A stretch of DNA of 64,000 bases from Promethearchaeota archaeon Loki_b32. Its GTDB lineage: Archaea; Asgardarchaeota; Lokiarchaeia; Sigyniarchaeales; SOKP01. Each line of letters begins with the position of its first letter. Position 1 is the first letter of the stretch. Position numbers and translations under genes: made by a program. The DNA is taken from assembly GCA_005223125.1 (NCBI GenBank), contig NJBH01000009.1:62001-126000 (forward strand). The letters are read 5' to 3'. Shown piece after piece: positions 15,159 through 48,959 of this stretch. Under the pieces are notes generated by a model, which worked only from the letters and a program-made list of their open reading frames with translations, was not told where the DNA came from and made no database searches.

Positions 15159-15890
15159 CTATACATTGGAGTATAATTCAATTTTCCGCCCATTTTCTTT
15201 CAAACGGATTAAATTGTCCTTAGACAATTTATCAATATGATATTTTACAGTATTTCGTGCAAGATTGATTTTCTTAGAAATCTCGGAGGAGGAAATCCCC
15301 GGATAATTTTGAATTAATTTTAAAATTTTTGTCGTAGTTTCTGATTTAATTGGTAGATTTTTAAAAGCATCAATTGATTCAATAGAGGATGTAATTGGAA
15401 AATATATTGTATATTGCCCATATTTTTCCTTTTTTATTATACGATACTTCAATAAAACATCTAAATGCCATTGTAATTGACCTTTTTGTAGATTACAGTT
15501 TCGCATCAATTCATTTTGATGTATTCCTGGATTATTGATGATTTCCCTTAATATGTTCAAACGATTTTCATTTTCAAAAATATCTGTGAGAGTTAAGTAA
15601 GATTTTCCTTTTTGAATAAAAGGTTTTCTTATAAAATAACCTATATATTCTTTTACAGTAAGTACTTCAAAAATAGATAACAATAAAATTATTCCTATTA
15701 AAATAGATACTAAAATTATTCCAAGAGTTATTTCTTCAGCAGGACCTAAAAATTCATCCAATGGTTTAATTAACTGATATAGAACCACGGATAATATTAC
15801 AAGAGAGAAAATAATAAGAACAAATTTCAATAGGGAAAAATAAATAAATTTTTTGGATGATTTACGATTATTCAATTTCTCAAAACCCAT
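15159..15890 (-). CDS. Membrane-anchored regulator with two winged-helix domains (copy 1)
   Basis: 243 aa. Two hydrophobic segments (about residues 18-42 and 52-78) are followed by two helix-turn-helix domains: GIHQNELMRNCNLQKGQLQ and, at the C-terminus, GISSSEISKKINLARNTVK. ArsR-like tandem wHTH proteins tethered to the membrane are common in archaea. It starts 6 bp after the ICMT-like gene, so the two are one operon. Its paralog at 27284-28009 (same layout, many identical stretches such as CNLQKGQLQWHL) sits in the radical SAM operon, and both operons share an upstream element. Confidence 0.82.
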   Translation of the reverse strand: MGFEKLNNRKSSKKFIYFSLLKFVLIIFSLVILSVVLYQLIKPLDEFLGPAEEITLGIILVSILIGIILLLSIFEVLTVKEYIGYFIRKPFIQKGKSYLTLTDIFENENRLNILREIINNPGIHQNELMRNCNLQKGQLQWHLDVLLKYRIIKKEKYGQYTIYFPITSSIESIDAFKNLPIKSETTTKILKLIQNYPGISSSEISKKINLARNTVKYHIDKLSKDNLIRLKENGRKIELYSNV

Positions 15891-15896
15891 TGAAAA

Positions 15897-16487
15897 TTAT
15901 TTTTTTTCTATTTTATTTCTATTTAATTTTAAGAAGGGAAACATAAAAAATACATTATTTGCATAATCTAAAAATTCATCTCCATATTTAGCTTTTAAGG
16001 CATACTCTTCAATTTTTGCTAAAATAATATAAGCTAATACTTCGCCAGTCCAAATCAAAAACATAAAAATGTATACATCGATACTCAAGTCAAAATTGAC
16101 AATAGGACTGGTTTTGAAAACCATTAAAGTCATTCCAAAAGTCATGATAATTAATGATATATATTGAGGATGTCTTAAATATCTATATGGTCCAGTTCGA
16201 ATTAGTTGTTTTCTGTGAGTTAATTGATAAATTAGAGATGTGATAAAAAGCATGAACCCTAATATTATAATATATATTTCATAGCTATTAAATAAGAATG
16301 CAAGATCCGATCCTAAAATTCCTGGGTTTTGAAAAAAGAACGCTAAATAGGTAATTAATGGCACACTCATAATACCAAACCATATGGCAGTGCATGGCAC
16401 ATATTGGAAAATCGGGATTAATATAGAGGAAAGACTTGTAGCAACCGAAGTTATTTTATTTTTTATTTTATTTCCTTTAAGATTCAT
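15897..16487 (-). CDS. Isoprenylcysteine-methyltransferase-like (NnrU/ICMT/PEMT fold) membrane protein
   Basis: 196 aa with four to five hydrophobic segments. The central motif RTGPYRYLRHPQYISLI and the later acidic EVLAYIILAKIEE fit the ICMT/PEMT family of membrane SAM-dependent methyltransferases, which methylate lipids or C-terminal carboxylates. The substrate is unknown. It precedes the membrane wHTH gene. The 28-bp promoter element lies 60 bp upstream. A decayed copy lies at 26986-27256. Confidence 0.7.
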   Translation of the reverse strand: MNLKGNKIKNKITSVATSLSSILIPIFQYVPCTAIWFGIMSVPLITYLAFFFQNPGILGSDLAFLFNSYEIYIIILGFMLFITSLIYQLTHRKQLIRTGPYRYLRHPQYISLIIMTFGMTLMVFKTSPIVNFDLSIDVYIFMFLIWTGEVLAYIILAKIEEYALKAKYGDEFLDYANNVFFMFPFLKLNRNKIEKK

Positions 16488-25397: not shown

Positions 25398-25757
25398 TTA
25401 CTCAAAAGGTTCAAAACTTCTACAAATAGATTCTTTTTTTAAAAATTTATTCTTAATTTGACAATGAAATATCTCCTCATTATAGTAGACACAATTGCAA
25501 CAAGAGAAGAGATGATTTTTTAGTTTTTTAGTTATTTCCTTTAATTTTTCAGGATACTTTCCTTTACTTAACATAGTTTCAAGTTTATCGTGTGATGTTG
25601 CTGTTAATTTACAAAAGATGACCTTTGGAGAGGGAGGATTCCATATTTCAATCAAAGACGTACCAGTTACATTCGTAGGAGAATTTTGGTTGTTATACCC
25701 ACATTTACAAAATTTTTTCCTTAACATATTTCCACATTCAGGACAGAATTCAACCAA
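25398..25757 (-). CDS. Zinc-ribbon protein, copy A
   Basis: 119 aa. CPECGNMLRKKFCKCGY at the N-terminus is a zinc ribbon of the RNA-polymerase subunit M type; the C-terminus has a second Cys set (CCNCVYYNEEIFHC...C). Function unknown. It is about 60 percent identical by eye to the protein at 31692-32063, sharing the start MVEFCPECGNMLRKK and IWNPPSP in the middle. The two genes bracket the radical SAM locus, which may mark an insertion or a large duplication. Confidence 0.7.
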   Translation of the reverse strand: MVEFCPECGNMLRKKFCKCGYNNQNSPTNVTGTSLIEIWNPPSPKVIFCKLTATSHDKLETMLSKGKYPEKLKEITKKLKNHLFSCCNCVYYNEEIFHCQIKNKFLKKESICRSFEPFE

Positions 25758-26985: not shown

Positions 26986-27256
26986 ATATATTTATATGGT
27001 CCGGTTCGAATTAGCTGCTTTCTATGAGTTAATTGAAATATTAATGAGTAAACAAAAAGCTGAAATAAAAATAGTCAGTTGATAGAATTCTGGGATTTTG
27101 AAAGAAAAAGGATATGTAAATTATGAACGGAACACTCATTATACCTTTCCATATAGTTAAACAGGGTACATACTGAAAAATTGGAATTAATATTGAAGAA
27201 ATTCTCGTAGAAATTGCTTCAATTTTTCTTTTAATTTTACTTCTCTTAAAATTCAT
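26986..27256 (-). pseudogene. Decayed ICMT-like methyltransferase copy
   Basis: The ORF from 27256 codes for 71 aa (ISSILIPIFQYVPCLTIWKG, SVPFIIYISFFFQNPRIL) matching the N-terminus of the intact protein at 15897-16487, then shifts frame and stops at 27041. Further left, DNA for the TGPYR region (tatggtccggttcgaattag, 26996-27015) is still recognisable, and then the copy is cut. The gene follows the membrane wHTH paralog, the reverse of the order at 15-16.5 kb. Confidence 0.72.
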
Positions 27257-27283: not shown

Positions 27284-28009
27284 TTATTCTTTTTGATTTA
27301 CATATAACTTTATTTCACGATTATATCTTTCAAGTATTATTAAATCAAGTTTAGCCAGTTTATCAACATGATATTTCACAGAACTTCGGCTCATATCTAA
27401 TTTCTTAGCAATCTTCGCTGAATTAATGCCAGGATTTTTTTCAATTAAATCTAGAATTTTTATGCTAGTTTTAGACTTTGTAATCAATTTTAATGGTATT
27501 GTTTTCATTTCTTTTTTGGATAAAACAGGGAAAAAGGATACATATTGTCCTAATTTCTCTTTTTTAATTATTCCATATTGTAATAATACATATAAATGCC
27601 ATTGTAACTGCCCCTTCTGCAAATTACATTTTCTAAGGAGTTCATTATTATGGATTCCGGGTTCTTGTAGAATTTTATTAATGATATTTTTACGGTTTTC
27701 ATTTTCAAAAATATCTTCGAAAGATAAATAAGTATACCGTTCAGCTACTATTGTTTTTCTTCTAAAATAGTCTTTATACTGATTAACAGTTAGTATGATT
27801 AAAAGTGATGTTAAAATTAGTGTGAAAAATGCTAATAAATCGATTAAAAACCAATTGATATTATCTTCAAGATAAAAAGATATCTTCGTTTCAGGAGAGA
27901 TTAGTAGGAATAAGGATAATAGAGAAATGCAAATAAGAGTGATTATAATACCTAATTTGATATAAAATAACCGTTTGTATTTCCCTATTTCATTTTTAAA
28001 AAAACTCAT
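27284..28009 (-). CDS. Membrane-anchored regulator with two winged-helix domains (copy 2)
   Basis: 241 aa. Two hydrophobic segments (about residues 15-35 and 48-70) precede two HTH domains: GIHNNELLRKCNLQKGQLQ and GINSAKIAKKLDMSRSSVK. Paralog of 15159-15890. It lies 20 bp after the third small peptide gene, as the last intact gene of the radical SAM operon, and is the obvious candidate to bind the 28-bp element found at both loci. The N-terminal half lying in the membrane suggests it senses something at the envelope. Confidence 0.8.
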   Translation of the reverse strand: MSFFKNEIGKYKRLFYIKLGIIITLICISLLSLFLLISPETKISFYLEDNINWFLIDLLAFFTLILTSLLIILTVNQYKDYFRRKTIVAERYTYLSFEDIFENENRKNIINKILQEPGIHNNELLRKCNLQKGQLQWHLYVLLQYGIIKKEKLGQYVSFFPVLSKKEMKTIPLKLITKSKTSIKILDLIEKNPGINSAKIAKKLDMSRSSVKYHVDKLAKLDLIILERYNREIKLYVNQKE

Positions 28010-28029
28010 ATTAAATAAAAAGAAATTGG

Positions 28030-28320
28030 CTAATTAAAAATTTTAAAAATTATTTTAGTCTTAATTTTTTTTTTAAAATCGTTTACTCTAACTGTAGAAT
28101 ATAAGGTTCCCGCGGGGTAAATATGTTTGGAATTTTCTATCCGAACAAGAACGATTAAAAATCCTAAGAAACTAACTACTATAATTAATAGGATTTTATA
28201 TAATAGAGAATGTTTACTGTTATCAAATAAAAATACTTTGTTTATTTCTTTTCTGTTTAGACCTAATCCCTCTCCAATTTTATATAGATTAAATATTTTA
28301 TCAAACATTTTATTGATCAC
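28030..28320 (-). CDS. Small single-pass peptide P3, candidate radical-SAM substrate
   Basis: 96 aa. N-terminal block FNLYKIGEGLGLNRKEINK, then a hydrophobic segment (ILLIIVVSFLGFLIVLV), then YPAGTLYSTVRVNDFKKK. It shares all three blocks with P1 and P2: (F/L)Y(x)2G(x)2LG(x)2(K)EIN, a membrane span, and YPxGTxYST(V/I)(K/R)(V/I)xDF. No Cys. The other family members lie upstream next to a radical SAM/SPASM gene. It could be a modified precursor peptide or a membrane adaptor for the enzyme; no known family recognised. Confidence 0.65.
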   Translation of the reverse strand: MINKMFDKIFNLYKIGEGLGLNRKEINKVFLFDNSKHSLLYKILLIIVVSFLGFLIVLVRIENSKHIYPAGTLYSTVRVNDFKKKIKTKIIFKIFN

Positions 28321-28387
28321 ACTTCTATTTTCTTGTTAAAAAATTATTGGTTTTAAATTTTGGTGTCTTAATTTTCTCTTTATGCAA

Positions 28388-29734
28388 TCATGATATAGTT
28401 CCAATAGAAGTAATTGGTTCAAATTTTGGTACGACACCTTTCTTACGTTTTATCCAATTTAATTCATCCGTTATAACAGATTTTATCTTACCTTTATTTC
28501 GAATATTAGTTATTCTTAGAAGACGCAATGCCTTTTTATAAATTTTCAAAGCCTGAGAATTCGATTTTAGCTTTACTAAAACTTTACCTAAATTCCAATA
28601 AAATAAAAAATTGTCTCTATAGAGTTGTATAGCTTTTAAAAGCATATTATAGGCTTTCTTATAATTTTTTTGATAAAATATCTTTACACCGAGATAAAAA
28701 AAATTAAAAGCACTTCTTTCTGCTAAAGCAGATGCGAAAAACTTTAAATTATAATCTTCGTTTTCCTTTGATAAATTTCTTAATTTATCGATAAGATTTT
28801 TTCTTTCCTCTTTGACTTTTATTAGATTTGTTATAAATTTTCTCGCAAAAGATTCTATTGAATAAAAAACAATTTTTTGTGATCCTGAATTAATCGGACC
28901 TTTTTTTAATAAATTATATAGAATATTGGGGAAATTGTATTGAATTAAAAGATCTGTAATTTCTCGTATGTTCGAATTTTCAGATTGAGAAATAAAATAT
29001 TTACTTTCTATTACTTTCAATAACAGATTGACGATTTGAGGCCATTTTATGAGTGATTCAATAATTAAGTCATAAATTAACTTTTTATTCTTCTTTCTTT
29101 TAAATTCAAGCGTTTGTATTGCGATAAAAGATAATAAATCTTCTTGTTCTTTAATTAACAGTGAATCATTAAAATTACTGTAATTCATAGTAAGTAATTT
29201 TTTACGGATTTTAGCTATAATTTGAAATATTTCTGTTTCATATACATTCATTACTTTAATACATTCAAATCTTACTGATGGAATAAATTCATGGTTGTAA
29301 AAACTTTTGGTACTCATATTTTCAAATCCATTATTTTCTAATAGTTCAATTAACAAGAAAGGAGGAAAACATAATTTATGTTGTAAACCTTTATGGGGTA
29401 TTCCGTAAATCCAACCTAAAATTTCTTTTTTTTGTTCTTTGGTCGAATCTAGATAATGCCGACATACTTTCTTGAGATCAGGAGTCTCAATAATTAATTT
29501 ACCTCCTGGTTCTAATACCCGAAAAAATTCACTTAAGGCATAGATTGCTTCAAAAAATGATAAGTGCTCTATTAGATGAATGGCTTTTATTTCTTCACTA
29601 CAATTATCTTCAAATTGTAAATCTATAGCGGACATTAATTTATCTGCAATTAATGTTTCATATAAATCAATATTGCAATAACCTATCTCGTACTTTTTTC
29701 CACAACCGATATTTAATTTCATTTTTCTTTTCAA
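28388..29734 (-). CDS. SAM-dependent methyltransferase with C-terminal TPR-like domain
   Basis: 448 aa, ATG at 29734 or 29722. Residues 5-160 are a class I methyltransferase: MKLNIGCGKKYEIG (motif I), AIHLIEHLSFFEAIY, and FFRVLEPGGKLIIETPDLK, the pattern of COG4627-like predicted methyltransferases. The next 200 residues are helical, and residues about 370-430 form TPR-like repeats (AYNMLLKAIQLYRDNFLFYW, ALKIYKKALRLL). The start lies inside the P2 gene (68-bp overlap), so translation is coupled. It may methylate the small peptides or a lipid or glycan. Confidence 0.72.
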   Translation of the reverse strand: MKRKMKLNIGCGKKYEIGYCNIDLYETLIADKLMSAIDLQFEDNCSEEIKAIHLIEHLSFFEAIYALSEFFRVLEPGGKLIIETPDLKKVCRHYLDSTKEQKKEILGWIYGIPHKGLQHKLCFPPFLLIELLENNGFENMSTKSFYNHEFIPSVRFECIKVMNVYETEIFQIIAKIRKKLLTMNYSNFNDSLLIKEQEDLLSFIAIQTLEFKRKKNKKLIYDLIIESLIKWPQIVNLLLKVIESKYFISQSENSNIREITDLLIQYNFPNILYNLLKKGPINSGSQKIVFYSIESFARKFITNLIKVKEERKNLIDKLRNLSKENEDYNLKFFASALAERSAFNFFYLGVKIFYQKNYKKAYNMLLKAIQLYRDNFLFYWNLGKVLVKLKSNSQALKIYKKALRLLRITNIRNKGKIKSVITDELNWIKRKKGVVPKFEPITSIGTIS

Positions 29735-29978
29735 AATCTTTAATTTTTATAGTAGAATATTTTGTGCCAGATGGATAAGTACTATCTGCTGAATTTATTC
29801 CAATAGATATTAAGAAGAATAATAAGATAGAAGATGATACAATTAAAATAAAAATAAATAATATTCTAAATGAAATTTGATGTTTTTTATCATGAAAAAA
29901 TAATAAATTATTTACCTCTTTTTTAGATAGCCCTAAAAATTTGCCAAATCTGTAAAATTGAGCAATTGTGGTAATCAT
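29667..29978 (-). CDS. Small single-pass peptide P2, candidate radical-SAM substrate
   Basis: 103 aa. It has the shared layout: IAQFYRFGKFLGLSKKEVN, a strong hydrophobic segment (ILFIFILIVSSSILLFFL), then ADSTYPSGTKYSTIKIKDFE. The start overlaps the P1 stop in an ATGA junction and the end overlaps the methyltransferase start by 68 bp. Its distal tail (about the last 20 residues) is therefore coded by DNA that also codes for the methyltransferase N-terminus. Confidence 0.7.
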   Translation of the reverse strand: MITTIAQFYRFGKFLGLSKKEVNNLLFFHDKKHQISFRILFIFILIVSSSILLFFLISIGINSADSTYPSGTKYSTIKIKDFEKKNEIKYRLWKKVRDRLLQY

Positions 29979-30310
29979 TTTAAAGATTTTACACCAATAT
30001 TTAGAACTTTAAAAAATCTACTATAGAAAGGGGAAACGAGTTTGCTAAATCTAGATTTATTCTTAAAATCTTTAACTTTTACTGACGAATAAAAAGAGTT
30101 GGAAGGATACGTGGAATCTGCGGGGTTGGTTATTATCATAAAGAGTGAAAATATAAATATACAGAAAAATGCAATAATAATTATGGAAAGACAGAAAAGT
30201 TTCATTTTTTTATATCTCCCCGAATAAGATAAGAAAACTCTATTGATTTCATTTTTATGAATTCCTAAACTCCTACCAATTTGATAAAACTGGATAATCT
30301 CATCAAACAT
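29975..30310 (-). CDS. Small single-pass peptide P1, candidate radical-SAM substrate
   Basis: 111 aa. IIQFYQIGRSLGIHKNEINR, a hydrophobic segment (LSIIIIAFFCIFIFSLFMII), then ADSTYPSNSFYSSVKVKDF and a basic tail. It begins 29 bp downstream of the radical SAM gene. The conserved sequence after the membrane span, shared by three paralogs while the rest drifts, is what is expected of a region recognised or modified by an enzyme. It is the longest of the three. Confidence 0.7.
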   Translation of the reverse strand: MFDEIIQFYQIGRSLGIHKNEINRVFLSYSGRYKKMKLFCLSIIIIAFFCIFIFSLFMIITNPADSTYPSNSFYSSVKVKDFKNKSRFSKLVSPFYSRFFKVLNIGVKSLK

Positions 30311-30339
30311 TTTTAATATTAACCTCCATTATCATGAAT

Positions 30340-31494
30340 TTAATTTAAGATATTAATTAATTTTGATATTGTAGTATCTACTTTTTTATTAATAGGTACA
30401 AGTTTATGATTTATCATTGTATTTTCAATGGCTCTCAAACAATAAGGGTTTTCAAAGGATTTTAAAGCTAGACTAGTTCCAAGGCAACCCCCCCTACAAT
30501 CATCAGCAAGATCGCATTGCTGGCAAAAATCTTTTAATGGATATCTTTTATTTTTCAATCTTTTTAAAATTTCATCTAAACTTTCATTTCTAATATTACC
30601 TTCAATATAATCATCTGGAAGTGTAAGACATCCTTTTATGTTTCCATTACTTTGAATACCTAAAACTGAATGACCTGCTTGACACCCAACCCAAGGATTT
30701 AATCCTAATTTAGGAATAAACCTTGAGAAATATCCAAAGCAATGAGCCCCGATTAAAGGTAATCTTTTGTAAGAATATTTTTTATGATTAATTGCTATAA
30801 ATAATGCCAAAGTATAATATTCTTCTCTAGAAATAACTAATTCTTTTGGAAAACGTCCAATAGGGACTGCTAATTGGATTTGCCATGCGATATTTTTATC
30901 AATTAATAACTTCTTAATCATGTTTATTTCTTTAAAATTAATTTTACTTACGGACGTAATAACAGTTACTGGAAGCTTTTCTTTTTTTAGTAAACTTATA
31001 AGATTTAAAGTTTTTTTGAATGAATTGTTGATACCCCGTAAATAATCATGTGTTTCTCCTCTTCCTCCATCTAAACTTAGAGATACACAGTCTGTTTTTA
31101 ATTCTTTTATCTCTTGTATATGTTTCTCTAAATTTAATCCATTCGTGATTATGGATAATTGCATTTTTTGATTTTTTACATCTCTTGCAATGTCATACCA
31201 ATCATCTCGTAATAATGGTTCGCCCCCCATTAAAGCAACTCCCTTATAACCATATGACTTTAAGTCTTTAACTAATTTTAAAGCTTCATTTGTATTTAAT
31301 TCATCAGAGCGAGCAAATCCTGCATCTGAACCACAGTGAATACATTTACTATTGCACTTTAACGTGATTTCCCAAACTGCACAATTAGGTTTAATTTTAT
31401 TTAATAATAGATCTGAAAATTTCGTCATATGATTTTCTGAATTACGTTTATTATTGTTATTTATGATTTGTAAATTAAAATCCTTTGTTTGCAA
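30340..31494 (-). CDS. Radical SAM/SPASM peptide-modifying enzyme
   Basis: 384 aa from 31494; Met 23 is an alternative start. C47, C51 and C54 form the CxxxCxxC radical SAM motif (LKCNSKCIHCGSDAG), followed by GYKGVALMGGEPLLR. The C-terminal SPASM domain supplies further Cys: GCQAGHSVLGIQSNG, GCLTLPDD, then CQQCDLADDCRGGC and a late C. Radical SAM/SPASM enzymes of this build mature ribosomal peptides such as sactipeptides, ranthipeptides and PqqA. Three small paralogous peptides follow directly. First gene of its operon, behind promoter element copy 3. Confidence 0.85.
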   Translation of the reverse strand: MQTKDFNLQIINNNNKRNSENHMTKFSDLLLNKIKPNCAVWEITLKCNSKCIHCGSDAGFARSDELNTNEALKLVKDLKSYGYKGVALMGGEPLLRDDWYDIARDVKNQKMQLSIITNGLNLEKHIQEIKELKTDCVSLSLDGGRGETHDYLRGINNSFKKTLNLISLLKKEKLPVTVITSVSKINFKEINMIKKLLIDKNIAWQIQLAVPIGRFPKELVISREEYYTLALFIAINHKKYSYKRLPLIGAHCFGYFSRFIPKLGLNPWVGCQAGHSVLGIQSNGNIKGCLTLPDDYIEGNIRNESLDEILKRLKNKRYPLKDFCQQCDLADDCRGGCLGTSLALKSFENPYCLRAIENTMINHKLVPINKKVDTTISKLINILN

Positions 31495-31541
31495 TAAAAA
31501 AAATTTAACTTCGTTATACTATTAGTAAAAATCTTAGTAAT

Positions 31542-31569
31542 AAAGGTTTAAGGTGCACTTTTCGAACAA
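31542..31569 (-). promoter_or_regulatory. Shared 28-bp promoter element, copy 3
   Basis: Plus strand aaaggtttaaggtgcacttt followed by tcgaacaa, 48 bp upstream of the radical SAM start. On the minus strand the TATA-like stretch TTTATTA follows TTAAACC. Same block and same orientation as copies 1 and 2. Confidence 0.7.
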
Positions 31570-31691
31570 TACAAGATACTAAAATATTTAAAAAGGAGTT
31601 ATCAAACATCTATAGCTAATAAACAAAGATAAGAAAAAATGGCACTCGTTTTAAATATAAAATAGATCCCAACGTTACCTATTAAACCTTC

Positions 31692-32063
31692 TCAACCGAT
31701 AATATCATACGGTTCATAACTTTTGCATATAGAATCTTTACTTAGATACTTATTCTTAAATTTACAATGAGATATTTCCTCATAATAGTAAACACAGTTT
31801 CTGCATGAATAAAGATGATTTTTAAATTTTTCTCTAACTTCCTTTAATTTTTCTGGAATCATCCCTTTATTTAGCATAGATTTAAGTTTTTCATGTGGAG
31901 TTGCTGTTATTTTACAATAGATGGCATTTGGAGAGGGAGGGTTCCAAATTTTTATCAAATGATTGTGAGACGCATCCTTAGAGGTAGCATCCAACTCACC
32001 ATACCCACACCGGCAAGTTTTTTTTCTTAACATGTTTCCACATTCAGGACAGAATTCCACCAT
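31692..32063 (-). CDS. Zinc-ribbon protein, copy B
   Basis: 123 aa, paralog of 25398-25757. N-terminal ribbon CPECGNMLRKKTCRCGYG and C-terminal CRNCVYYYEEISHC...C. The conserved middle IWNPPSPNAIYCKITATPHE is unique to this pair within the window. Function unknown; perhaps a small cytosolic metal-binding protein. It lies 36 bp after the nitroreductase gene, on the same strand. Confidence 0.7.
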   Translation of the reverse strand: MVEFCPECGNMLRKKTCRCGYGELDATSKDASHNHLIKIWNPPSPNAIYCKITATPHEKLKSMLNKGMIPEKLKEVREKFKNHLYSCRNCVYYYEEISHCKFKNKYLSKDSICKSYEPYDIIG

Positions 32064-42500: not shown

Positions 42501-44119
42501 TTCTCTTAAACTAATTTTTTATTTATTTTTATAAAGTTACCCAATAATCAATATTTTAAGATTAAACAACTATAAATCTTACCTTAAATACATAATCATA
42601 ATTAAATCATATTTATATGGAAAAGGTTAATGGTGAAAGAATTCAAATTTCCAGACGGATTTTTATGGGGTGCTGCTACATCTAGTTATCAAATAGAAGG
42701 CGCTTGGAATGAAGACGGAAAAGGAGAAAACGTTTGGGATCAAATTTGTCATAATACAAAAAAAGTTCAAAATAGCGATACAGGAGATACTGCCTGTGAT
42801 CATTATCATCGCTATAAAGAAGATATCCAATTAATGAGCGAATTGGGTCATAAGGCTTATCGCTTTTCAGTATCTTGGCCTCGTATTTTTCCTTCAGGGA
42901 AAGGTACAGCTAATAATAAAGGAATAAATTTTTATGATAATCTAATTAATGAATTATTGGCAAATGGAATTGAACCAGTGTTAACTCTGTACCACTGGGA
43001 CTTGCCAGTATCCTTACAGAAAATTGGTGGATGGGAAAGTAGGGAGGTTGTTGAGGCTTATGTTAATTATGCATCATTTATGTTTGATCATTATGGTGAT
43101 CGTGTTAAAAAGTGGATTACTTTCAACGAGCCTTTAGTTTTTACAATTTGGTTTTATTCTCGTGGGCTATATAATAAGCGAGATGTTAGAGGAGGGTTAA
43201 TTTCCTCAATTAATGTGAATGCAGCGCATGCTAAAGCAGTAGAAATATATCACCAATCTAAAAATCCAGATGGACTAATAGGGATATCTCTCAACTTATC
43301 CCACGTATATCCTGAAAGTGACTCTGAATTAGATAAGAAAGCAGTTATTTACACGGATGGAATATATAATAGATGGTTTTTAGATCCTGTTTTAAAAGCA
43401 TCATATCCAAATGATATATTAGAATTAATAGAGAAACCATATAATATTCCTAAAATTCCTAAGAATGACATAGAATTATTAGAGAACAATCCCATTGATT
43501 TTTTAGGTATAAACAATTATTCTTGCACTCGGGTTAGTGCAAAAAAGGAAAAAGATTTAACTCTTCTTGGAAATTTTAGCAAGACAAATAAAGTCAAAGG
43601 ACGTGAATATTCTGAGATGGGTTGGGAAGTTTGTCCTAAAGGATTTTATGATCTTTTAATGAGAATCGATGAAGATTATGATCATCCTATGATATATATT
43701 ACTGAAAATGGAGTCGCATATAAAGATGACAAGATAATTAATGGAATAATACAAGACGATGATAGAATATATTATATTAAACGGTATCTTGAAGCTGCGT
43801 ATCAAGCTATTAAAAAAGGGGTTAATTTAAAAGGTTATTTTGTCTGGTCATTAATGGATAATTTTGAATGGATTTATGGTTATTCTAAAAAATTCGGATT
43901 AATCCACATCAATTTTGAATCTCAAAAGAGGACGTGGAAAAAAAGCGCTTATTGGTATCGTGATGTGATTAAAGCAAATAGTTTTAATATATGAAAATAA
44001 GCCCAGTTTCTCTAATGAAAATCTATTGGAAAATGATTATTTTTTAAAAAAAAATTTTTAACTAATCCCACTACATTATTCTTATTTATAATTAATATAC
44101 AATTTGGCATTAAGCTAAA
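42501..44119 (+). repeat. GH1 duplicated unit, copy A
   Basis: Matches 47342-48959. The ORF is almost base-identical (one difference noticed) while about 130 bp upstream and downstream differ at many positions (roughly 90 percent identity by eye). Confidence 0.85.
42630..43994 (+). CDS. GH1 family beta-glycosidase, copy A
   Basis: 454 aa, full length for GH1. N-terminal FPDGFLWGAATSSYQIEGAW, acid/base Glu167 in TFNEP, nucleophile Glu359 in YITENG, and the aglycone-site GYFVWSLMDNFEW near the C-terminus. No signal peptide, so a cytosolic enzyme cleaving beta-glucosides, -galactosides or related disaccharides. A second almost identical gene lies at 47470-48834. A TATA-like TTAAATA is about 45 bp upstream of the ATG in both copies. 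Confidence 0.92.
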   Translation: MVKEFKFPDGFLWGAATSSYQIEGAWNEDGKGENVWDQICHNTKKVQNSDTGDTACDHYHRYKEDIQLMSELGHKAYRFSVSWPRIFPSGKGTANNKGINFYDNLINELLANGIEPVLTLYHWDLPVSLQKIGGWESREVVEAYVNYASFMFDHYGDRVKKWITFNEPLVFTIWFYSRGLYNKRDVRGGLISSINVNAAHAKAVEIYHQSKNPDGLIGISLNLSHVYPESDSELDKKAVIYTDGIYNRWFLDPVLKASYPNDILELIEKPYNIPKIPKNDIELLENNPIDFLGINNYSCTRVSAKKEKDLTLLGNFSKTNKVKGREYSEMGWEVCPKGFYDLLMRIDEDYDHPMIYITENGVAYKDDKIINGIIQDDDRIYYIKRYLEAAYQAIKKGVNLKGYFVWSLMDNFEWIYGYSKKFGLIHINFESQKRTWKKSAYWYRDVIKANSFNI

Positions 44120-46915: not shown

Positions 46916-47469
46916 GAGTAGTACAATATCAGAAAAAACAATATTTCTTTAATGATTTAGAAGTTTTTTCAGTCCTATGGGAATTAATAACATTATAATT
47001 GTCCTAGATTTAAATGAAACTTTAATTAAAACAGGTGAAAGACTAGATAAAGAAAAAATAAACCTATTAAAGGTTTAATTAGATCACGTTTTTTAAATTC
47101 TGCCTATAAGATCAAGATTGTTGGTAATACCAAAATTCTAAATAAATATTGTAAAATAGGATTGATTTCAAAGATTTATATATTTCGTGTTATTTATTTT
47201 TAAAATTTAAATATATTTGAAAATAAAATTTATAATAATAACATGAAAAAAATTGACAGAAATATATAAATAAATGAATCTTAGAATTATGTAGTAGATA
47301 ATCTAATGAAAAAATTAAAAATTAGATTTCTATGTTATAATTTCTCTTAAACTAATTTTTTATTTATTTTTTTAGGTCACCCAATAATCAATATTTTAAG
47401 TTGAAACAAATTTAAATCTTACCTAAAATACATAATCCTAATTAAATCATATTTATATGGAAAAGGTTA
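46916..47469. other. Intergenic stretch before GH1 copy B
   Basis: Contains the HAD-like remnant at 46977-47078, AT-rich DNA with no supported gene, and from 47342 on the upstream flank of the duplicated GH1 unit. Confidence 0.4.
46977..47078 (+). pseudogene. Possible N-terminal remnant of a HAD-superfamily protein
   Basis: 34 codons from an ATG read MGINNIIIVLDLNETLIKTG and onward to a TAA. VLDxxETL resembles HAD motif I with the second Asp changed to Asn. Nothing else of the family follows. Chance is possible. Confidence 0.25.
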
Positions 47470-48959
47470 ATGGTGAAAGAATTCAAATTTCCAGACGGAT
47501 TTTTATGGGGTGCTGCTACATCTAGTTATCAAATAGAAGGCGCTTGGAATGAAGACGGAAAAGGAGAAAACGTTTGGGATCAAATTTGTCATAATACAAA
47601 AAAAGTTCAAAATAGCGATACAGGAGATACTGCCTGTGATCATTATCATCGCTATAAAGAAGATATCCAATTAATGAGCGAATTGGGTCATAAGGCTTAT
47701 CGCTTTTCAGTATCTTGGCCTCGTATTTTTCCTTCAGGGAAAGGTACAGCTAATAATAAAGGAATAAATTTTTATGATAATCTAATTAATGAATTATTGG
47801 CAAATGGAATTGAACCAGTGTTAACTCTGTACCACTGGGACTTGCCAGTATCCTTACAGAAAATTGGTGGATGGGAAAGTAGGGAGGTTGTTGAGGCTTA
47901 TGTTAATTATGCATCATTTATGTTTGATCATTATGGTGATCGTGTTAAAAAGTGGATTACTTTCAACGAGCCTTTAGTTTTTACAATTTGGTTTTATTCT
48001 CGTGGGCTATATAATAAGCGAGATGTTAGAGGAGGGTTAATTTCCTCAATTAATGTGAATGCAGCGCATGCTAAAGCAGTAGAAATATATCACCAATCTA
48101 AAAATCCAGATGGACTAATAGGGATATCTCTCAACTTATCCCACGTATATCCTGAAAGTGACTCTGAATTAGATAAGAAAGCAGTTATTTACACGGATGG
48201 AATATATAATAGATGGTTTTTAGATCCTGTTTTAAAAGCATCATATCCAAATGATATATTAGAATTAATAGAGAAACCATATAATATTCCTAAAATTCCT
48301 AAGAATGACATAGAATTATTAGAGAACAATCCCATTGATTTTTTAGGTATAAACAATTATTCTTGCACTCGGGTTAGTGCAAAAAAGGAAAAAGATTTAA
48401 CTCTTCTTGGAAATTTTAGCAAGACAAATAAAGTCAAAGGACGTGAATATTCTGAGATGGGTTGGGAAGTTTGTCCTAAAGGATTTTATGATCTTTTAAT
48501 GAGAATCGATGAAGATTATGATCATCCTATGATATATATTACTGAAAATGGAGTCGCATATAAAGATGACAAGATAATTAATGGAATAATACAAGACGAT
48601 GATAGAATATATTATATTAAACGGTATCTTGAAGCTGCGTATCAAGCTATTAAAAAAGGGGTTAATTTAAAAGGTTATTTTGTCTGGTCATTAATGGATA
48701 ATTTTGAATGGATTTATGGTTATTCAAAAAAATTCGGATTAATCCACATCAATTTTGAATCTCAAAAGAGGACGTGGAAAAAAAGCGCTTATTGGTATCG
48801 TGATGTGATTAAAGCAAATAGTTTTAATATATGAATCTAAGCCTAGTTTCTCTAATGAAAATCTATTGAAAAATGATTATTTTTTAAAGAAAATTTTTTA
48901 ACTAATCCCACTACATTGTTCTTATTTATAATAAATAGACAATTTGGCATTAAGCTAAA
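47342..48959 (+). repeat. GH1 duplicated unit, copy B
   Basis: See copy A at 42501-44119. Same orientation. Confidence 0.85.
47470..48834 (+). CDS. GH1 family beta-glycosidase, copy B
   Basis: 454 aa with a protein identical to copy A; the only DNA difference seen is a silent TCT/TCA in a Ser codon (48724-48726). Catalytic Glu167 and Glu359 are present. Because the flanks of the two copies differ much more than the ORFs, recent gene conversion of the coding part is likely. Same direction as the GH2 gene between the copies. Confidence 0.92.
   Translation: MVKEFKFPDGFLWGAATSSYQIEGAWNEDGKGENVWDQICHNTKKVQNSDTGDTACDHYHRYKEDIQLMSELGHKAYRFSVSWPRIFPSGKGTANNKGINFYDNLINELLANGIEPVLTLYHWDLPVSLQKIGGWESREVVEAYVNYASFMFDHYGDRVKKWITFNEPLVFTIWFYSRGLYNKRDVRGGLISSINVNAAHAKAVEIYHQSKNPDGLIGISLNLSHVYPESDSELDKKAVIYTDGIYNRWFLDPVLKASYPNDILELIEKPYNIPKIPKNDIELLENNPIDFLGINNYSCTRVSAKKEKDLTLLGNFSKTNKVKGREYSEMGWEVCPKGFYDLLMRIDEDYDHPMIYITENGVAYKDDKIINGIIQDDDRIYYIKRYLEAAYQAIKKGVNLKGYFVWSLMDNFEWIYGYSKKFGLIHINFESQKRTWKKSAYWYRDVIKANSFNI

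Follow-up and report, generated by a model that had tools for sequence, protein, structure and literature searches.

A candidate splicease-related maturation cassette with membrane-spanning precursor peptides in Asgard archaea

PlpX, the radical S-adenosylmethionine (SAM) enzyme of the Pleurocapsa spliceotide system PlpXY, excises tyramine from Xaa-Tyr-Gly sites and is placed in family IPR026482 in a review (PMC11002830). The splicease reaction is given as a net loss of C8H9NO (PMC10533398), and spliceotides are reported, as cited in PMC10373908 and PMC11117315, to inhibit proteases. The radical SAM classes of ribosomally synthesized and post-translationally modified peptides (RiPPs) that antiSMASH calls in archaea are the sactipeptides and ranthipeptides (PMC12144867). 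Described here is a cassette in a 64,000-nucleotide stretch of Promethearchaeota archaeon Loki_b32 (contig NJBH01000009.1, positions 62,001 to 126,000 of the forward strand; hereafter the window), which encodes a radical SAM enzyme with a SPASM domain, three small membrane peptides and a methyltransferase. It is proposed to be a splicease-like RiPP cassette that may produce membrane-anchored ketoamide inhibitors, and the probability of this explanation as a whole is put at roughly one half. An earlier note on the DNA had called the system a candidate undescribed one. The cassette is indeed not described in the literature searched, a search that did not take in the primary splicease reports (Scott 2022 might list archaeal or Kunitz-bearing members), but the enzyme itself joins known families, TIGR04103/PlpX and TIGR03913.

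The cassette is on the minus strand, and all six genes of the operon read there by the earlier note are present, in the order radical SAM/SPASM maturase, peptide 1, peptide 2, methyltransferase, peptide 3 and a membrane winged helix-turn-helix (wHTH) gene. Starts refined by comparison with relatives place the maturase at 30340..31428 (ATG at 31428, the reading frame being open from a TTG at 31494), the methyltransferase at 28388..29722 (ATG at 29722, frame from a TTG at 29734) and peptide 3 at 28030..28308 (ATG at 28308, alternative GTG at 28320). Peptide 1 (111 amino acids, 29975..30310) and peptide 2 (103 amino acids, 29667..29978) display the ATGA overlap noted before, the start of the second at 29978 overlapping the end of the first at 29975. 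The methyltransferase start codon lies inside the peptide 2 gene, with an overlap of 56 nt. A second cassette is found on contig C52 of the same genome, and these two enzymes are the only ones of their clade there. In a scan of 84,980 species, one contig carries an enzyme that is 97% identical to that of the window.

The three homologous membrane peptides represent a real family, far above chance. Pairwise identity is 33-34%, and in dozens of other genomes a profile built from the three detects family members with E-values of 1e-16 to 1e-30. The shared motif drawn up earlier is approximately right, but peptide 2 has KKEVN, peptide 3 has LYKIGEGLGLNRKEIN, and peptide 1 displays YPSNSFYSS without the GT. 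Pfam and NCBIfam gave no match for the three peptides or for 32 relatives searched, and a known membrane family was rejected on this ground. An AlphaFold model of a peptide with 44 relatives begins with two short helices, followed by a long helix in the membrane (31-64), a core in extended form and a last helix at the C-terminus; its pTM is low, so local structure alone was used. A single transmembrane span in the window-type peptides is supported.

The order radical SAM gene, one to four peptides, methyltransferase gene is kept in every complete Loki/Thor-type locus, frequently with overlaps, which bears out the association proposed earlier. Variants consist of a peptide that sometimes follows the methyltransferase, and of a methyltransferase ahead of the radical SAM gene in two loci. 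Profiles of the enzyme and of the methyltransferase each match 59 of 228 Asgard genomes, and the two sets are nearly identical; the mismatched genomes noted are mostly cases at contig ends. Strong peptide matches (E<1e-8) sit in Loki, Thor and Hermod-type families, in genomes that, contig-end cases aside, also carry the enzyme and methyltransferase pair. A wide spread of peptide homologs without the enzyme, named in advance as a refuting result, was not seen. A regulator had also been counted as part of the operon. The membrane wHTH gene (27284..28009, minus strand) adjoins the cassette in the same direction and is a paralog of 15159-15890, but among the loci compared it is beside the cassette in the window only, and it was rejected as a part of the system. 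Viral carriage was rejected as well, no relative having been found on viral contigs.

Other Asgard families with the enzyme and methyltransferase encode diverged precursors, which are multi-span proteins of 145-185 amino acids or, in one genome, soluble peptides of 46-65 amino acids. Each ends in an X-Y-G-V-(Y/F) type core, with TLYGVF, TDYGVY, TRYGVY and PMYGVF in one locus. The multi-span precursors of this type are found in loci L231 to L239, including the reverse strand of L232 and L233. Separately, a ∼200-amino-acid multi-span protein without a Pfam match pairs with a lone peptide gene, usually downstream of the methyltransferase (loci L032, L036, L041, L043, L046 and L055; similar in L040); it is a possible partner of the mature peptide.

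Beyond Asgard archaea, closely related enzymes turned up in the species scan in Thermoplasmatota, Geobacter, Nitrospiraceae, Smithellaceae, Syntrophus, Elusimicrobia, Alphaproteobacteria and Melainabacteria. Most precursors of Thermoplasmatota have 52-80 amino acids and lack a span. One carries three tandem cores, DVYKAGT-x-YGTVSxKD, and another has a leader-core-leader-core arrangement, a tandem layout that is the anatomy expected of RiPP precursors. In Geobacter, Nitrospiraceae, Smithellaceae and Syntrophus, a similar N-terminus leads into a signal-like span and then a Kunitz_BPTI domain, with a core at the C-terminus, for example CGTRYFTVSLRDF or SKYGGVSIRDF; the domain is detected at E about 1e-13 in Geobacter and Syntrophus precursors and more weakly in two further precursors. 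Elusimicrobia precursors display a lipobox-like span and CGTRYYTVSxxDF.

Throughout the family, the N-terminal leader and the C-terminal core are constant and the scaffold between them is variable: one transmembrane span, several, none, a lipoprotein-like segment or a Kunitz domain. The membrane span does not hold as the defining feature that it was earlier taken to be. On the other hand, the assignment of the N-terminal block as leader and of the block beyond the span as core is supported at the sequence level, both by the short Thermoplasmatota precursors and by the tandem cores. An encoded leader-core precursor clustered with its maturase, the arrangement by which RiPPs are recognized, is present, and the peptides very probably behave as RiPP precursors, the cassette being a RiPP-type maturation system.

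Several further arrangements were seen near related enzymes. Seven Thermoplasmatota cassettes (L116, L124, L126, L128, L130, L134 and L135) have two adjoining paralogous radical SAM genes, and several of these two-enzyme cassettes have nearby a conserved ligase-like gene of 461-470 amino acids that resembles phenylacetate-CoA ligase by eye. A plasmid of Agathobacter rectalis (L205:3710-3916) carries an unannotated 68-amino-acid reading frame ending in PVMYGTGVRM, directly upstream of a related radical SAM gene and then a major facilitator superfamily transporter; it is a precursor candidate from a gut bacterium. A protein neighbouring a radical SAM enzyme of the cyanobacterial phylum (L215:455-1060) displays five tandem QPKYGLPMPI/R repeats, in which X is Lys.

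The cores of the window are YPSNSF-Y-SSVKVKDF in peptide 1 (Y68-F82, 30065..30109), YPSGTK-Y-STIKIKDF in peptide 2 (Y68-F82, 29733..29777) and YPAGTL-Y-STVRVNDF in peptide 3 (28075..28119), all on the minus strand. The conserved Tyr is Tyr74 at 30089-30091, Tyr74 at 29757-29759 and the Tyr at 28099-28101, respectively, and the preceding residue X is Phe, Lys and Leu. X-Tyr-(Gly/Ser/Ala) is the sole universal core feature, and X-Y-G/N/S recurs in Asgard precursors that are multi-span or soluble and in other respects dissimilar. Of 109 distinct archaeal cores aligned on Tyr, collected with a pattern admitting G, S, A, T, F, Y or M at the position after it, 108 have Ser, Gly or Ala there; in the window this residue is Ser, in Thor Gly or Ala, and in nearly all Thermoplasmatota and most other Asgard precursors Gly. 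The conserved Tyr is probably the target of the enzyme. None of the three window cores has Cys, as expected for a Tyr-directed maturase.

Position X in the 109 cores is occupied by L (34), R (21), Y (17), F (13), K (12), H, D and M (3 each) and E, G and A (1 each). X is never Val, Ile, Thr, Pro, Asn, Gln or Ser, and position -4 is freely occupied. This set corresponds to protease P1-type residues, which fits what is expected if X becomes the P1 residue of an inhibitor. Within a locus, X of the same class is rarer than expected, in 9 of 52 Loki pairs (18.4 expected, p=0.0006) and 6 of 39 Thor pairs (13.0 expected, p=0.0018). P1-type residues that vary between the peptides of a locus, together with Kunitz-bearing bacterial precursors, fit a protease-inhibitor role, which is put forward here tentatively, with somewhat less assurance than the chemistry.

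The enzyme has a CX3CX2C core motif and the full set of SPASM cysteines. Its best matches among 18,950 NCBIfam models are TIGR04103 (199.6 bits, cut-off 725) and TIGR03913 (170.9 bits, cut-off 592). We take IPR026482, the family given for PlpX, to be TIGR04103, nif11-class peptide radical SAM maturase 3. In a tree of 108 sequences the Asgard-type enzyme joins TIGR04103 and TIGR03913, apart from nine other radical SAM sequences (SH-aLRT 99), and the two families group together (SH-aLRT 100). Mean identity is 33% to TIGR04103 members versus 26% to the nine outgroup enzymes, and 11 signature positions are common to the window-type enzymes and both families but rare in the outgroup. These sequence comparisons support a kinship with the splicease-type family TIGR04103/PlpX and with TIGR03913.

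The precursors of the two families are also comparable. Nif11 precursors in the TIGR04103 loci examined bear LYG, MYG or AYG sites, and a Nostoc locus has the PlpX-PlpY-precursor layout with a 71-amino-acid gene in the place of PlpY. As in spliceotide loci, the Asgard cassettes combine the same Fe-S layout of the enzyme with X-Tyr-small residue cores and several cores or precursors per locus. TIGR03913 (rad_SAM_trio), the GDL-motif maturase of DUF1843 peptides, is a sister enzyme family with tandem small precursors that mostly carry XY(G/A), and a class I methyltransferase is sometimes adjacent. Its precursors differ in that they are soluble PF08898 helices and have their Tyr close to the N-terminus, whereas the window peptides have no PF08898 match and the Asgard enzyme scores 171 bits against the 592-bit cut-off. 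On a plasmid of Aureibacter tunicatorum (L206:3150-5920), three DUF1843 peptides, a GDL-type radical SAM enzyme and a class I methyltransferase are consecutive, a parallel to the Asgard cassette. Sactipeptide and ranthipeptide systems likewise consist of a SPASM radical SAM enzyme and a small precursor, but this identity was rejected: the window cores have no Cys for a thioether, and the enzyme is in a different clade, only distantly similar to the solved maturases SkfB, CteB and SuiB.

An AlphaFold model of the methyltransferase (pLDDT 92) displays a class I SAM methyltransferase fold with an all-alpha C-terminal solenoid of tetratricopeptide repeat (TPR) type, and the protein is termed MT-TPR here. 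The RiPP methyltransferase LahSB is among its best fold matches in the Protein Data Bank. Another RiPP methyltransferase, ApyS, C-methylates a carbon adjacent to an alpha-keto group (PMC11117315). It is proposed by analogy that MT-TPR may methylate an enolisable carbon of the product.

A maturation pathway can be suggested. In each small membrane protein, the radical SAM/SPASM enzyme would recognize the N-terminal helical leader (..GKxLGLxKKEIN..) and act on the invariant Tyr of the X-Tyr-(Ser/Gly/Ala) core. PlpX-like splicing appears the most likely reaction, in which a tyramine equivalent would be removed from Tyr and the chain rejoined, so that X would become an alpha-keto-beta-amino (ketoamide) residue with its side chain retained; tyramine excision, modelled on PlpX, is considered evenly balanced. 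MT-TPR, found in nearly every archaeal cassette, would bind the same peptides and probably methylate the product; the site may be the enolisable carbon adjoining the new ketone. Positive charge is chiefly N-terminal of the Loki span (44 versus 8), and a peptide inserted N-in/C-out would present the modified core just outside the membrane. X would then occupy P1 in a protease inhibitor of ketoamide type, and several peptides per locus with basic, aliphatic, aromatic or acidic X could form a panel against proteases of differing specificity.

A number of observations weigh against a splicease-like inhibitor system. The enzyme is far under the TIGR04103 cut-off, and the clade uniting it with bacterial relatives has an SH-aLRT of 84 in what is a quick tree with a small outgroup of nine sequences. 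Gene maps and Pfam scans of the cassettes showed no PlpY-like partner, a dedicated model of the RiPP recognition element not having been run. The leader is not of the Nif11/NHLP kind: hhalign gives a probability of 0.4% against Nif11 precursors, with no Pfam or NCBIfam match, and homology to Nif11 was rejected. The Loki cores of the window have Ser after Tyr, where the described XYG motif has Gly, and Geobacter and Elusimicrobia cores have Phe or Tyr there. Kunitz domains occur with bacterial precursors only, Thor peptides display no charge bias around the span, and diversity of X within Thermoplasmatota loci is not significant (p=0.13), all three diversity shuffles ignoring the shared ancestry of the peptides. 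With its membrane-spanning precursors and dedicated MT-TPR as further differences, the system would work like the spliceotide system but fails the cut-off, PlpY and leader tests of the PlpXY type; it is regarded as a new spliceotide variant rather than a member.

Some of these same points favour a RiPP system of the same build with another core chemistry, such as a Tyr-centred cross-link (cyclophane or ether), a Cβ modification or an epimerisation. SPASM enzymes form many such bonds, the core has conserved Tyr, Ser/Thr and Asp residues, Loki cores have Ser after Tyr, and the enzyme is outside TIGR04103 by cut-off. Yet the closest described relatives are of the splicease type and share X-Tyr-Gly/Ala in their precursors, and the X-Y-G-V-Y/F cores, without a universal Ser/Thr/Asp, offer no fixed cross-link partner; this chemistry is rated a real but less likely alternative. 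Function might also differ. That the modified peptide is a signal or pheromone, whose core a membrane protease would release for a partner to sense, would suit the several Loki loci in which a lone peptide after the methyltransferase is paired with the conserved multi-span protein. Such a role is unlikely, given that this protein is missing from Thor, Thermoplasmatota and the window, that the cassette has no conserved protease or transporter, and that X differs within one locus, unlike a single pheromone.

Constant cores, membrane location, the lack of export genes and a presence in about a quarter of the searched Asgard genomes are what a structural or enzymatic role would predict, whereby the radical SAM enzyme would equip small membrane subunits with a cofactor-like residue, much as quinone cofactors are matured, and no natural product is made. 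This is improbable in view of the tandem multi-core precursors of Thermoplasmatota, a scaffold that varies while X diversifies, and the lack of a conserved partner oxidoreductase. As to chance neighbours, small single-span reading frames are common in AT-rich genomes and could lie beside an unrelated radical SAM gene, but co-occurrence and fixed order across Asgard archaea, Thermoplasmatota and bacteria refute this, and its likelihood is negligible.

Other features of the window adjoin the cassette or are elsewhere in it. A short reading frame at 27041-27256 resembles the 5′ part of an isoprenylcysteine-methyltransferase-like gene at 15897-16487 and looks like a decayed copy, since both adjoin the paralogous membrane wHTH genes. 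Paralogous small zinc-ribbon-like genes are on either side of the region (25398-25757 and 31692-32063). Two glycoside hydrolase family 1 beta-glucosidase genes (42630-43994 and 47470-48834) have identical 454-amino-acid translations, and their DNA is identical across 1287 bases (42599-43885 = 47439-48725), owing either to a duplication in the very recent past or to an artefact of assembly.

If the splicease-like explanation is correct, protein splicing by tyramine excision would no longer be confined to bacterial peptides but would include membrane proteins of the archaea that are nearest to eukaryotes. A clear chemical prediction would be at hand for an unannotated peptide family, and protease inhibition with a variable P1 would be a testable reason for making such residues. 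The fullest form of the hypothesis is a surface panel in Asgard archaea of membrane-anchored ribosomal ketoamide inhibitors, splicease-made, C-methylated by MT-TPR and diversified at P1 within each locus. It is speculative and rather doubtful as a whole; splicease-type chemistry would then be both archaeal and bacterial, with X-Tyr-small as its sole fixed element. The short soluble Thermoplasmatota precursors with tandem cores are easy to try in a laboratory host, and the system offers a way into the peptide chemistry of Asgard archaea, of which almost nothing is known.

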